A stretch of DNA of 64,000 nt from Chromatiales bacterium (ex Bugula neritina AB1) (GTDB lineage: Bacteria; Pseudomonadota; Gammaproteobacteria; Granulosicoccales; Granulosicoccaceae). A program made the translations under genes and the position numbers. This document shows positions 56,512 through 63,917 of the stretch, piece after piece. The notes beneath the pieces were generated by a model. The model was not told where the DNA came from. It saw nothing but the letters and a program-made list of their open reading frames with translations, and ran no database searches. Numbering within the stretch: position 1 is the first letter of the stretch; every line of letters begins with the position of its first letter. Location: the NCBI GenBank assembly GCA_001730015.1, contig MDLA01000080.1, positions 1-64,000 on the forward strand, written 5' to 3'.

Positions 56512-59500
56512 ATGCCTTCCCACTTCCCTTTTTCTCCAACTGATCAGGAATCTCCACTCATGCAGGTGCTGTTTGGCGATCGTGCACTGTCGACTTTCCG
56601 GCTAGAGGCGTTTCTTCAGGAATGTCGCGCCCGGGCTATACCGGTCTCGAAGATCGATACGCGTTTTGTGTATCTGATCAATGAGGGGCCAGGCGAAGCA
56701 CGTGTCGATGAAGACCGTCGATTGCGCGAATTGCTGCAGGCACAGCCTGACAGCGAAATACGCATAGACCGGTTGGTGATACCACGTGCCGGTACGTTAT
56801 CGCCCTGGTCGACTAAAGCCACCGATATCTGCCACAACTGTGGCCTGCACAATATCAGGCGCGTCGAAAGGGCGGTTGCCTGGCAGATCGATGGTGCCCG
56901 GGTCGATCTGCACGCATTGCATGATCTGATATTTGACCGCATGACCGAAATGGTTTTGCCTTCGCTGGAAAAGGCAGGCATTGTGTTTGAGCAGCATGAT
57001 CCCGCCCCGCTGCAGCATATTGATGTTCTGATTGGTGGTGCGGATCAGCTAGCCGTTGATAATCGGCGTCTCGGCTTTGCTCTGTCTGCCGATGAGATCG
57101 ACTATCTCGTGGGGAACTATAAGGCGCTTGAGCGTAACCCGACTGATGCAGAACTGATGATGTTTGCACAGGCTAACTCGGAACACTGTCGGCACAAAAT
57201 ATTCAATGCGGACTGGGTAGTCGACGGAATAGCAGCTGATGCTTCGTTGTTCGATATGATTCGCGAAACGCATAAGGCGCAACCGCAAGGGACTCTGGTC
57301 GCCTATGATGATAACGCTGCGGTGATCGAAGGGTATGTTGGAGATCGGTTTGCGGCTAACCCTGATACGTATTTATATGAAGCGGTTCGAGAGCCAGTAA
57401 ATATACAAATCAAGGTCGAGACACACAACCATCCCACGGCGATAAGCCCGTTTGCAGGAGCGGCGACGGGAGCTGGAGGAGAGATTCGGGATGAAGGTGC
57501 AACCGGCAACGGGGCGCGACCAAAGGCGGGGATTTGCGGTTTCAGTGTCTCTAATTTGCGCATCCCGGAGTTTCAGCATAGCTGGGAGCAAAGCGCTGGT
57601 AAGCCGGATCATCTGGCATCGGCACTGGATATCATGCTTGAAGGGCCTATTGGCGCTGCAGCGTTCAACAATGAATTCGGCCGACCGAATCTAGCGGGAT
57701 ATTTTCGAACGCTGGAAGTACAGGTGCCGCTGCAGCCTGGCGCACAGTGGCGGGGATACCACAAACCGATAATGATAGCCGGCGGCTCAGGCAATATTCG
57801 ACCCGGCAATACCTTTAAAAAACCGGTACCGCCGCATAGCGTTGTCGTGGTTCTGGGCGGGCCCGCCATGCTGATAGGTCTGGGCGGCGGTGCTGCTTCG
57901 TCTATGGCGAGCGGGCAAAGCGACTCCTCTCTTGACTTTGCATCTGTTCAGCGCGGTAACCCGGAGATGGAGCGGCGTTGTCAGGAGGTGATTAATCAAT
58001 GCGTGGCACTGGCGGAATCGTCACCGGTGTTGTCGATGCACGATGTCGGTGCCGGCGGTTTATCAAATGCACTGCCGGAACTTATGCACGATGCCGGGCG
58101 GGGTGGACGGTTTGATATACGACGCGTGCTGAACGATGAGCCCGGGATGTCGCCGATGGAGCTCTGGTGTAATGAATCGCAGGAACGCTATGTTCTCGCT
58201 ATTGCTGAAGATAAGCTAGCGCAGTTTGAGTCAATTTGCACCCGAGAACGTTGCCCTTATGCGATTGTTGGTGAGGCGACAGAAGCACAGCATTTATTGG
58301 TGAGTGATACCTTGCTGGGTGAAGTTCCGGTCGATATGTCGCTTGATTTGTTATTAGGCAAGCCGCCGAAACTGACGCTCGATGTTGCTCGACAAAGCTA
58401 TTGCGAAAAGTCGCTTGATTTTGCGGGTGTTACCCTCGATGAAGCTGTTGATCGGGTGTTTAACTGTCCGGCGGTGGCGGCAAAGAATTTTCTAATTACG
58501 ATTGCTGACCGTAGTGTTGGCGGGCTGGTGCATCGTGATCAGCTGGTAGGGCCCTATCAGATGCCGCTGGCGGATGCGGCAATTACGCTGTCAGATTTTA
58601 ACGGGTATTCTGGTGAATCTATGGCGATGGGCGAGCGCTCTCCACTCGCCATGATCAGCCCTGAGGCGTCCGGCCGGATGGCAGTAGCAGAGGCCCTGAC
58701 TAACATGATCAGCTCGGCGGCCGGAGATATTAAACAAATTAAGCTGTCAGCAAACTGGATGGCAGCCAGTGGGCATGGCGGAGAAGATGCCGCCCTTTTT
58801 GATACGGTCACTGCCGTAGCACGGGATTTTTGTCCGCTGCTGGGTATTTCGATTCCTGTAGGCAAAGATTCATTGTCTATGCAGACAGTGTGGCAGCAGC
58901 AAGGGCAAACGGAAACTGTCTCTGCTCCGTTGTCTTTAATTATTACCGCCTTTGCACCGGTTAAGGATGTACGCATGGCAAGAACGCCGGAGCTGAAGGT
59001 GACCGCGGATGACAGCGTGCTGCTGCTGATCGATCTGGGTATGGGTAAGGACCGGCTGGCAGGTTCCGCGCTGGCTCAAGTGTTTAATCAGATTGGTCAT
59101 GAGTGCCCTGATATCGATGATCCCCTGAAGCTTCGTGCTTTGTATACCTGCATGCAGGAACTGATGCTGCAGGAGTTGATTCTTGCATGCCACGATCGCT
59201 CTGATGGTGGTTTGTTTACCACAGTGGCCGAAATGGCGTTTGCGGCGAATACCGGTGTTGCACTTTCTCTAAAAGCGAATCGGAACGGAGCGCTTGGCAA
59301 TCTATTCGCTGAAGAAGCCGGTCTGGTCATACAGGTGGAGCGAGCAGCACTGGCAGCTGTTGAGCTGGCATTCCGACAGCACGGACTGGCAGAATGCGTA
59401 TCGCAGATTGGAGTGCTCAGCGGCGATTCAGAATTCAGTGTCCGTATAAACGACGAGCCGGTTTATAGAAAACCGCTTGCTGAACTAAAGCGTCAATGGT

Positions 59501-60411
59501 GGGAAACCAGTTATCGCATGCAGCGTTTGCGCGATAACCCGGTTTGTGCCGATGAAGAATACCAGGAGGTTTGTCGGCGCGATGATCCGGGTATCAGCCC
59601 GTATCTAACATTTGATCCCCGTAATTCGGGCCCGGTGTATACGGGGTGCCGACCCAGGGTTGCCATTTTGCGAGAGCAGGGTGTTAATGGCTATCTGGAA
59701 ATGGCCGCAGCGTTTGACCGTGCCGGATTCGAGTGCCGTGATGTACACATGACTGACATAATAAACGGCTTGTGTTCTCTTGAAGAATTCTCGGGGCTGG
59801 TTGCCTGTGGCGGTTTTTCCTATGGCGATGTGCTCGGTGCCGGAGGTGGCTGGGCACATACAATCCGCTATAATCCGGTAGCGGCAGATCAGTTTAACCG
59901 TTTTTTTCAGCGTCCGGATGTATTTGCGCTGGGCGTTTGCAATGGATGCCAGATGTTTTCTCATCTGAAAGCGTTTATACCGGGCGCATCGGCCTGGCCG
60001 TCTTTCAAGCGCAATAAATCGGAGCAGTTTGAATCGCGATTATCGACGGTTCTGGTTGAACGCTCGCCGTCTATATTGCTGACGGGTATGGAAGGATCGA
60101 AAATTCCTGTTGTCGTGGCGCACGGTGAAGGTCGGGTGGATCCAGCAGCACAGACCGACAAGCCCGTAGTGACGCTGCGCTATGCAGATAACTTCGGAAA
60201 TATTTCTGAGACTTATCCGGCCAACCCGAATGGCTCGCCGAACGGCGTAACCGGACTATGCAGTGAAGACGGCCGGTTTAATATCATGATGCCGCATCCG
60301 GAGCGGGTGTTCCGTACAGTACAGAATTCATGGCATCCGGCATCGTGGGGCGAAGATGGTCCCTGGCTGAAGATGTTCCGCAATGCACGCTATTGGGTGG
60401 CCAATATCTAG
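56512..60411 (+). CDS. purL: phosphoribosylformylglycinamidine synthase PurL (single-chain)
   Basis: A 1,299-residue enzyme combining the synthetase and the glutaminase, the large form of gammaproteobacteria. It converts FGAR, glutamine and ATP to FGAM in purine synthesis. Visible: the N-terminal PurS-like region, [61 protein letters not shown], and the glutaminase with the nucleophile Cys in [12 protein letters not shown]. No PurR box was seen upstream. It converges on the next gene with 55 bases between stops. Confidence 0.97.
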
Positions 60412-60466: not shown

Positions 60467-62638
60467 TCACAGAGATTTTATCCGGGCTGGTGAGTCGAAG
60501 CTTGACTCACTGTCGAGATATCGGCGAATAGTGGGTATATCGATTTCCAGACGTTCTATAGATACCCTCAGCCACTCGGCCGTGGCTGCGACTGTTTCGC
60601 GGGATAACCCTTTGCCGACAATATGGTGGTAGATGCGATCATCGTATTCCTGCTGGGACAGCGATACGACAGGTGATTGCATCGACATGGCGGCAGCAGA
60701 TTTTTCCAGCATGGCGTACGGTGTCAGGCTTACATCTGTTACATTTTTCTGCAGATAGCGCTGCCACTGATTGACTTTATCGTGAAACTTAACTGCTGTT
60801 TTTACTGTATTAGCCAGATTGGTTTCCGAAGATACAAACATCGGGATCAGGGTGGTTAGTTTATGCGCTGAGGTAGCAGCTGGGCGCAACGCTGGTGTGA
60901 GGCTGTTGAAATCCCGCTGAAATGAAGGCCAGTGTTCAATCAGTCGGCTGACCAGATGCGAAGAGTCGAGCTCATACGATAGGTTGCGGGCAAAGTTTAC
61001 TACTGAATCCAGTCGCTGCCAGTTGCTGTTTACACCGCGAAACAGATTGCCAAAGCAGCGCTTGTAATACACGTCGTTTTCAAAGAGCTCCGAAAATTTG
61101 AGGGTTTTAGACAGTTCAGTCAGTGATTCCAGGTCTTTGTCCGTCACTAGTCCATTGTGGGTCTTCAGTATCTCGTTGAGCTGTCGCCTGGCTCTGAAGT
61201 AGGCCGGGTTTGTCAGTTGAGATTCCTGCTCCCGCTTTGCAATAATTTTGATCAGGCGCGCCAGAGAGCGGCTATTCGGCACTGCGCTCAAGTGAAACAA
61301 CTCGCGGGCAGTCTCCATTTGGTGTTCTATAGATGCGGCTTGAATTTTAGCTTTCTGCAGTAGCAACCGGGTGTCGGGGTCGGCATGCATGGAGATCGCG
61401 TGATGCTGCATCTCAGGGGGTGCATTGTTAATACGACTGTGTGATTTATAGAGGTTAACAAGTAAACCAACCGTTTGTTCGCTGGAATTAAAATGGCGTT
61501 TGAATTCGCTTTGCTCGCACAGATTTTCAATGTCTGCGGCCATTCGTCTGACGCGTTCAGGCAGTTTATAGATATGCTGGAGTCGCCAGTAGCCCAGGCC
61601 GATTTCGGTTAGCCATTGAGCACACTTGAGCGACTTCTCTAAATTTTCTCCGTGCAGATCGGGATCTCGAGCTAAAAGTGATTCGCTCGAAAGCCCCTGT
61701 TCTTTGGTGCCGGCGAAACTTTGCAATGCAGCTGATAGCTGATCACCGTCTATAAAACGCAGCATGCGGATGGCCAGTTGCGCATTGAACTGATCCGGGG
61801 CAGGCGGCATGGGCTGAAATTCTGTTCCCGGCCGGGTTCTGGCAAGCTCGAGATCCAGTCTCTCGTCAGGCGATATATCGGTTAACACATCTGATTGCAG
61901 AGTAAACAGACCGGTATTTGCGCTGATTCGGCATTGAAGTGTTGCGTGCAATTTGCGGCTGAGCGCACGCAGGAAATCTCGCATGTCGGCTGCGGTATCG
62001 AAAGGTTCTATGATCTGCTCGACATGGCTGTCGCAGGATTCGGCGATATGTGGATTCAGCCTGAGTGAGCCTTGAGTGTAGCTGACGGTATACGGGCTTC
62101 CACGTCCCCGCGAACGGTCTATTGTCACTGGTATTAAGAGTAACGGGATGCGTTTTTTCTGACCCTGGCGATCTATGGTTACGGCGAACCCTGCGGCAAT
62201 GTAGAGCGAATACCGGATAGCCGGGTTATCGGGCGACGTTTCCATTTGCAGCTTTCTGCATTGCTGCGACAGCGTGCGGTCATCGTGCCGGGTCTGCAGG
62301 TAGCGAGCGCTGTTGAGCGCTTTGGAGCTGGCATCGCCGCTGCTGTCTGGTGCCTGAGGTAGCAGATGAACCGGGTTTCCTCGGGTTACTAATTCACGAT
62401 AGACCTCTACGCAGGAAATTGGGTTTAGCTGTACATCCGCGTTGCTGGAGTTCCAGTTTTTCAGCATGCTGCTCCGCAGAACGCGTGTTTGCTGCTGATC
62501 CGTATCAGTGCCGTCGGTGTTGATAGCGGCTTCAACCACGTCGATTGCTTCTTCCTGACGGGGCAGATCACCCGACCATGAGTCTGATGCTTCGTGGGCA
62601 GGCGATGGTGCAGTTGGGTATTGCGCTGTAAGTGTCAT
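60467..62638 (-). CDS. DUF4011-like protein without a helicase domain
   Basis: A 723-residue soluble protein. Residues about 75-205 resemble the N-terminal region of DUF4011/DUF3320 superfamily-1 helicases: YLQTRHDDRTLSQQCRKLQ, YSLYIAAGFAVTI, RIPLLLIPVTIDRSRGRG and SLRLNPHIAE (the usual PLLLxPVxLxR...LNPxL). After this, residues 290-723 are mostly helical, with no Walker A GxGKT, no DEAD/DExx box and no nuclease motif, although the normal family continues into an ATPase. It is convergent with purL and divergent from msrP. Function unknown; it may be a regulatory or targeting module that acts with a partner. Confidence 0.7.
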   Translation of the reverse strand: MTLTAQYPTAPSPAHEASDSWSGDLPRQEEAIDVVEAAINTDGTDTDQQQTRVLRSSMLKNWNSSNADVQLNPISCVEVYRELVTRGNPVHLLPQAPDSSGDASSKALNSARYLQTRHDDRTLSQQCRKLQMETSPDNPAIRYSLYIAAGFAVTIDRQGQKKRIPLLLIPVTIDRSRGRGSPYTVSYTQGSLRLNPHIAESCDSHVEQIIEPFDTAADMRDFLRALSRKLHATLQCRISANTGLFTLQSDVLTDISPDERLDLELARTRPGTEFQPMPPAPDQFNAQLAIRMLRFIDGDQLSAALQSFAGTKEQGLSSESLLARDPDLHGENLEKSLKCAQWLTEIGLGYWRLQHIYKLPERVRRMAADIENLCEQSEFKRHFNSSEQTVGLLVNLYKSHSRINNAPPEMQHHAISMHADPDTRLLLQKAKIQAASIEHQMETARELFHLSAVPNSRSLARLIKIIAKREQESQLTNPAYFRARRQLNEILKTHNGLVTDKDLESLTELSKTLKFSELFENDVYYKRCFGNLFRGVNSNWQRLDSVVNFARNLSYELDSSHLVSRLIEHWPSFQRDFNSLTPALRPAATSAHKLTTLIPMFVSSETNLANTVKTAVKFHDKVNQWQRYLQKNVTDVSLTPYAMLEKSAAAMSMQSPVVSLSQQEYDDRIYHHIVGKGLSRETVAATAEWLRVSIERLEIDIPTIRRYLDSESSFDSPARIKSL

Positions 62639-62936: not shown

Positions 62937-63917
62937 ATGCCAATCACCTTTAAAGCCGGTAATAAAATCAACTCTTCAGAGATAACACCGGAAGAGGTTT
63001 TTAATCGTCGTCGTGAATTTCTTTCCGCCGCAGGCTTTACGATGGGAGCGGCAGCCATCGGGATATCACCCTGGTCTGATGTCGGGGCAGCGGTGCCGGA
63101 ACTTGGCGCGATATCACAGTGGTCCGGCTCGACCACGGAGAAGCAGACGCCCTGGACTCAGGCGACCACGTATAACAACTTTTATGAATTAGGTACGGAT
63201 AAAGGTGACCCTGCCAGAAATGCAGATCGTCTGGTGACAGATCCCTGGTCTGTTGAAATAGAAGGAGAGTGTGGCAAACCCGGTACCTACACCCTTGAGG
63301 ACATACTAAAGCCTCATGCCAATGAAGAGCGCATTTATCGATTGCGTTGTGTTGAAGCCTGGTCGATGGTGATCCCCTGGGCAGGATTTCCTCTGGGTGA
63401 TCTGCTAAAGCGATTCGAGCCCAACAGCAAGGCTAAATACGTTCAGTTTCAGACTATTATTGATAAGGAACGATTACCCGGTCAGCGCTATCCAGTGTTG
63501 CAATGGCCCTATGTCGAGGGCCTGCGTATAGACGAAGCAATGCATCCACTGACCTTAATGGCCGTTGGCATGTATGGCAAAAATTTACCCAACCAGAGTG
63601 GTGCTCCATTGCGACTGGTTGTGCCATGGAAGTACGGGTTTAAGAGTATTAAATCGATTGTTCGAATTAGCTTTGTTGAGAAACAACCTGATACCAGCTG
63701 GAATCTATCAGCCCCCAGGGAATACGGATTTTATTCCAATGTGAATCCTGACGTAAGTCATCCGCGCTGGAGTCAGGCAAAAGAACGTCGGCTCGACGGT
63801 GACACCAAAGGATTGGCCGCGCTATTCAGCAAAAAACGTGATACAGAGATGTTCAACGGATACGCCGAAGAGGTAGCCGGTTTGTATACAGGTATGGATT
63901 TGAAGACTAATTTCTAA
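62937..63917 (+). CDS. msrP: MsrP (YedY) periplasmic methionine-sulfoxide reductase, catalytic subunit
   Basis: A 326-residue molybdopterin enzyme that repairs oxidised methionines in the periplasm. The twin-arginine signal is [11 protein letters not shown] (from 24). The Mo ligand Cys138 is in [25 protein letters not shown]; the remaining YedY blocks ([52 protein letters not shown]) are intact. Good ribosome site (GCGGAG). Its usual membrane partner msrQ is not seen in the 83 bases left. Confidence 0.95.

Follow-up and report, generated by a model that had tools for sequence, protein, structure and literature searches.

The window, a stretch of 64,000 nucleotides, encodes a protein of 723 amino acids (60467..62638, minus strand, ATG start) that, judged from profile comparisons, is a DUF4011 helicase cut down to its two accessory modules, with RecA1, RecA2 and the C-terminal nuclease gone. 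We hold with high confidence that this motorless short form is a conserved variant of the DUF4011 helicases, both in its identity and in its conservation. It is an ordinary chromosomal gene of one family of marine bacteria.

Two accessory modules of a helicase

The DUF4011 domain (PF13195) occupies residues 55-200 (62039..62476, minus strand; E = 2.1e-7, 31.5 bits against a gathering threshold of 22.2) and is also matched by all 27 aligned homologues of the protein (E <= 0.01; best E = 6.9e-15), so that the assignment of the N-terminal half to DUF4011 by the sequence-only reading is borne out. That reading had also proposed a profile comparison with the DUF4011 helicases, and here the family of short forms was matched to them by hhalign (probability 98.8, E = 1.3e-16, 197 columns). 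The protein is the only DUF4011 copy in its own 7.4 Mb assembly. The reported lack of an ATPase motif extends to the family, since neither Walker A ([AG]x4GK[ST]) nor motif II (hhDE[ASCH]) was present in any of the 25 short-form homologues scanned. The MTES_1575 nuclease, which is found at the C-terminus of each of four full-length DUF4011 helicases scanned (4/4), was absent from the 723-aa protein in a Pfam scan.

The remainder of the protein includes a junction region (residues about 235-305; 61724..61936, minus strand) and a helical arm (residues 306-664; 60647..61723, minus strand). The arm aligns to positions 805-1164 of the 1,903 positions of the anti-phage ProA model (NCBIfam NF058533; E = 7.8e-11), although the score of 40.1 bits stands against a cut-off of 1,500, and the motor, the nuclease and the long N-terminal extension of ProA are missing from the short form. 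Residues 351-664 match positions 494-810 of PDC-S37, a PADLOC candidate defence protein of 1,550 positions (E = 1.5e-17), which was recovered by 26 of the 27 aligned homologues. When 48 family genomes were searched, the short forms covered PDC-S37 from about 24 to 228 and again from about 494 to 788 (810 in the 723-aa protein), whereas the part from about 229 to 490, where motif I lies, was skipped and nothing was matched past about 810. The junction, which has no Walker A, hence takes the place of the RecA1 segment with motif I in the full-length helicases.

The position of the arm was mapped on helicases taken from other genomes and from viral contigs. Among full-length DUF4011 helicases with both motifs and a match to the C-terminal part at i-E < 0.01, this match has Walker A on its N-terminal side and motif II on its C-terminal side in eight of eight, and the match to the N-terminal part (DUF4011) precedes Walker A in every full-length helicase in which Walker A is present. 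The clearest case is the protein of locus L096, in which positions 244-691 of the family profile are colinear with residues 361-810, with Walker A at residue 141 and motif II at about 1047. Reversed-sequence controls gave best i-E values of 0.058 for the N-terminal part and 1.2 for the C-terminal part. By these alignments the C-terminal half is a homologue of the long helical insertion that separates motif I from motif II in DUF4011 helicases; the short form thus keeps the insertion typical of this SF1 group while lacking Walker A and motif II. Because the arm is the helicase's own insertion, the protein equals such a helicase minus RecA1 and RecA2. The C-terminal helical domain that had been noticed before is real and conserved, but ProA, PDC-S37 and L096 show that it is no separate addition.

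The same two modules, in the same order, are found in Hhe (NCBIfam NF042953, a DUF4011 domain-containing anti-phage protein of about 1,800 aa). In addition, Hhe carries both RecA halves, including motifs I and II, and has an MTES_1575 nuclease at the C-terminus; the short form lacks all of these, and the Hhe model gave no reported match to the 723-aa protein at E <= 1.

In both fold and sequence, full-length DUF4011 helicases most resemble the UPF1-like SF1 helicases (UPF1, senataxin, Sen1 and IGHMBP2). In structures of UPF1, domain 1B stands before motif I and domain 1C between motifs I and II. When a segment of a DUF4011 helicase from a viral contig was modelled (pLDDT 69.7, pTM 0.46), its top PDB folds in Foldseek were senataxin, UPF1, Sen1 and IGHMBP2 (E 5e-3 to 6e-2, low TM-scores). 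The modules kept by the short form, which is no helicase, correspond in position to 1B and 1C; the equivalence that we infer is positional only, and DUF4011 in the helicase model is alpha/beta with no evident 1B barrel. A sequence search of the PDB with the short form gave no match, and an AlphaFold prediction of the 723-aa protein from a two-row alignment was unusable (pLDDT 35).

Conservation and origin of the short form

The short form was found in 35 of 57 genomes searched, all 35 belonging to one family, and the combined searches place it in about 45 of the 48 genomes of this family, almost always as a single copy (L002 and L004 of G013:C7 are one contig of 163,611 bp and were counted once). 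Its length is about 660-756 aa, apart from a few shorter ORFs at contig ends. Seven pairs of short forms gave pN/pS values of 0.11-0.24, and dN/dS was 0.06-0.09 in two pairs with unsaturated synonymous sites; by these ratios the gene is under strong purifying selection, conserved and in use. In a tree of the DUF4011 part, one branch separates 25 short forms from 26 full-length helicases (support 95/85). Because these 25 short forms lie on one side of the branch, a single origin is the simplest reading.

In a wider sampling, DUF4011 is present in 19 of 274 genomes of the class and in 50 of 399 of the phylum. No other convincing stand-alone form was seen in about 640 genomes sampled from class and phylum, a sampling that is not exhaustive. 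Outside the family the DUF4011 ORFs are long or, in the shorter cases inspected, belong to split helicases in which DUF4011 is still followed by Walker A. The PADLOC searches scored the best candidates per genome in the class and up to eight per genome in the family. Two exceptions among the shorter DUF4011 ORFs, a 336-aa ORF with no motor following (L158:943-1950, plus strand; G284:C55) and a 251-aa ORF in G643, are probably remnants. No viral relatives of the short form appeared in a search for them. In a literature search by name, PDC-S37 was not mentioned and DUF4011 was named only rarely.

Since the helicase-defining regions (RecA1 with motif I, and everything from motif II onwards) are missing, one might suspect an artefact of assembly or a helicase gene that is truncated or in decay. 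Real split helicases elsewhere keep Walker A after DUF4011, however, and we regard this explanation as having a negligible chance; it is ruled out by the occurrence in about 45/48 genomes at the same length and mostly at the same locus, by strong purifying selection and by descent in one lineage. The earlier suggestion of a new, cut-down family is upheld by the same counts.

Within the family, full-length DUF4011 helicases have a sporadic distribution and were detected in about 7 of the 48 genomes (G001, G002, G013, G028, G034, G406 and G017, the last as a piece of the full-length type at a contig end). One of the full-length helicases of the family adjoins a type I methyltransferase. A full-length Hhe (L098:2097-7661, minus strand; G013:C228) scores 2005 bits against the curated cut-off of 2000, in a genome that also carries the short form. 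Since Hhe shares both accessory modules with the short form and occurs above its cut-off in this genus-mate, the short form could act on Hhe/ProA helicases as a regulator or a dominant-negative inhibitor, or it could counter phage inhibitors of these helicases as an immunity protein or a decoy. This possibility seems quite improbable, as about 38 genomes of the family keep the short form with no detectable full-length DUF4011 helicase and as the gene lies in a housekeeping locus rather than a defence island.

Genomic neighbourhood and the search for a motor

In the window, the short form is convergent with the conserved gene purL (FGAR amidotransferase; 56512..60411, plus strand; Pfam GATase_5 and FGAR-AT), 55 bp away, and divergent from an msrP-like molybdopterin oxidoreductase gene (62937..63917, plus strand; Pfam Oxidored_molyb), with 298 bp between the start codons. 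With this arrangement it has no operon partner in the window. The msrP-like gene is followed, beyond the window, by one for an msrQ-like Ferric_reduct protein. The usual gene order in the family begins with purL, in some genomes followed by a HAD hydrolase gene, and continues with the short form, msrP, msrQ, mdh, nrdR, ribD and a gene for a proteasome-like protein. A search for homologues of about 720 residues and their neighbours, as proposed from the sequence alone, thus found forms of the same length mostly at the purL/msrPQ locus. The adjacency to purL and msrP pointed out at that stage is indeed common in the family, but msrP is not universal: in L063 and L064 it is not adjacent to the short form, so the link to msrP is not essential. 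The site is a mostly fixed housekeeping locus and no defence island; sporadic spread and defence-island context, the signs of a defence system, are not seen for the short form, which is near-universal in the family. The proteasome-subunit-like protein conserved in the locus across the family is exemplified by L067:17792-18376 (plus strand; 194 aa, E = 1e-5), and an M16 insulinase-type metallopeptidase of 966 aa lies beside purL (window:53347-56247, minus strand).

Two genera, g3 and g6, carry an additional gene (354-360 aa) that lies immediately upstream of the short form on the same strand and encodes the arm alone (360 aa at L064:8654-9736 and 354 aa at L063:8029-9093, both minus strand; arm matches with E = 4e-33 and 1e-31 in g3 and g6). 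Neither arm-only protein was matched by any Pfam model, and the g3 protein was matched by no PADLOC model. The existence of arm-only genes in two genera indicates that the arm can be maintained apart. A third arm-type copy, not at the purL locus, was observed at the end of a contig (L100:1-1158, minus strand; G015:C48).

What the protein lacks is precisely the motor, and the tandem arm genes of g3 and g6 hint at a multi-subunit assembly; both observations might point to a split helicase whose RecA motor is supplied in trans by a partner encoded elsewhere in the genome. Profile searches of the window's own genome for three families gave no ProA or PDC-S37 helicase and a single AAA_12 (UPF1-like) helicase (L144:1026-4511, minus strand; G000:C141), which at 1162 aa has its own motifs I and II. 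Moreover, no helicase is near the short form or conserved in its neighbourhood at the loci compared, and only about 7/48 family genomes contain a full-length DUF4011 helicase. The partner elsewhere that had been considered from the sequence alone accordingly gains no support, and we judge a split helicase improbable.

A putative ATP-free clip or adaptor

We favour, at about an even chance or slightly less, the reading that an anti-phage SF1 (UPF1-like) helicase of the DUF4011 type gave rise, by loss of its motor and domestication, to the short form, which may act as an ATP-free clip or adaptor, a mechanism that we infer from the retained modules. In UPF1-like helicases, 1B and 1C project from RecA1 and jointly form the grip on nucleic acid, which is no longer bound when 1C is lost (PMC6138625). 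The short form has lost RecA1, RecA2 and the nuclease but keeps DUF4011 and the long helical arm, which, as the positional counterparts of 1B and 1C, would supply a grip surface without ATP. This surface, or inherited protein contacts, would hold a nucleic acid or nucleoprotein complex, to which the short form would recruit other factors or from which it would block them. Its role would be a cytosolic housekeeping or regulatory one, not that of a defence effector.

The pI of the short forms ranges from about 5 to 9 across the family and net charge differs from genus to genus, which disfavours a general nucleic-acid clamp. The lack of charge conservation would also suit a pure protein-protein scaffold, in which the arm and DUF4011 are kept for protein binding and never touch nucleic acid, as would the separate arm gene in g3 and g6, since a module for dimerisation or an adaptor could be expected to occur on its own. 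However, the gene has no consistently co-located partner and its neighbours are unrelated housekeeping genes; we consider such a scaffold somewhat unlikely in itself, if nearly as likely as the clip or adaptor. The fullest version of the clip or adaptor reading, in which the motor was stripped once, the remainder became a housekeeping gene fixed throughout the family as an ATP-independent nucleic-acid clip or adaptor, and the protein forms a complex with the arm-only protein in two genera, is more doubtful and is put forward only as a speculative scenario.

DUF4011 is common in anti-phage helicases, and the two-module protein together with the arm-only genes provides a natural case of separation of function. 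The short form would hence reveal what the accessory parts of these helicases do without ATP hydrolysis, and it is likely to be an example of a defence gene turned into a housekeeping gene.
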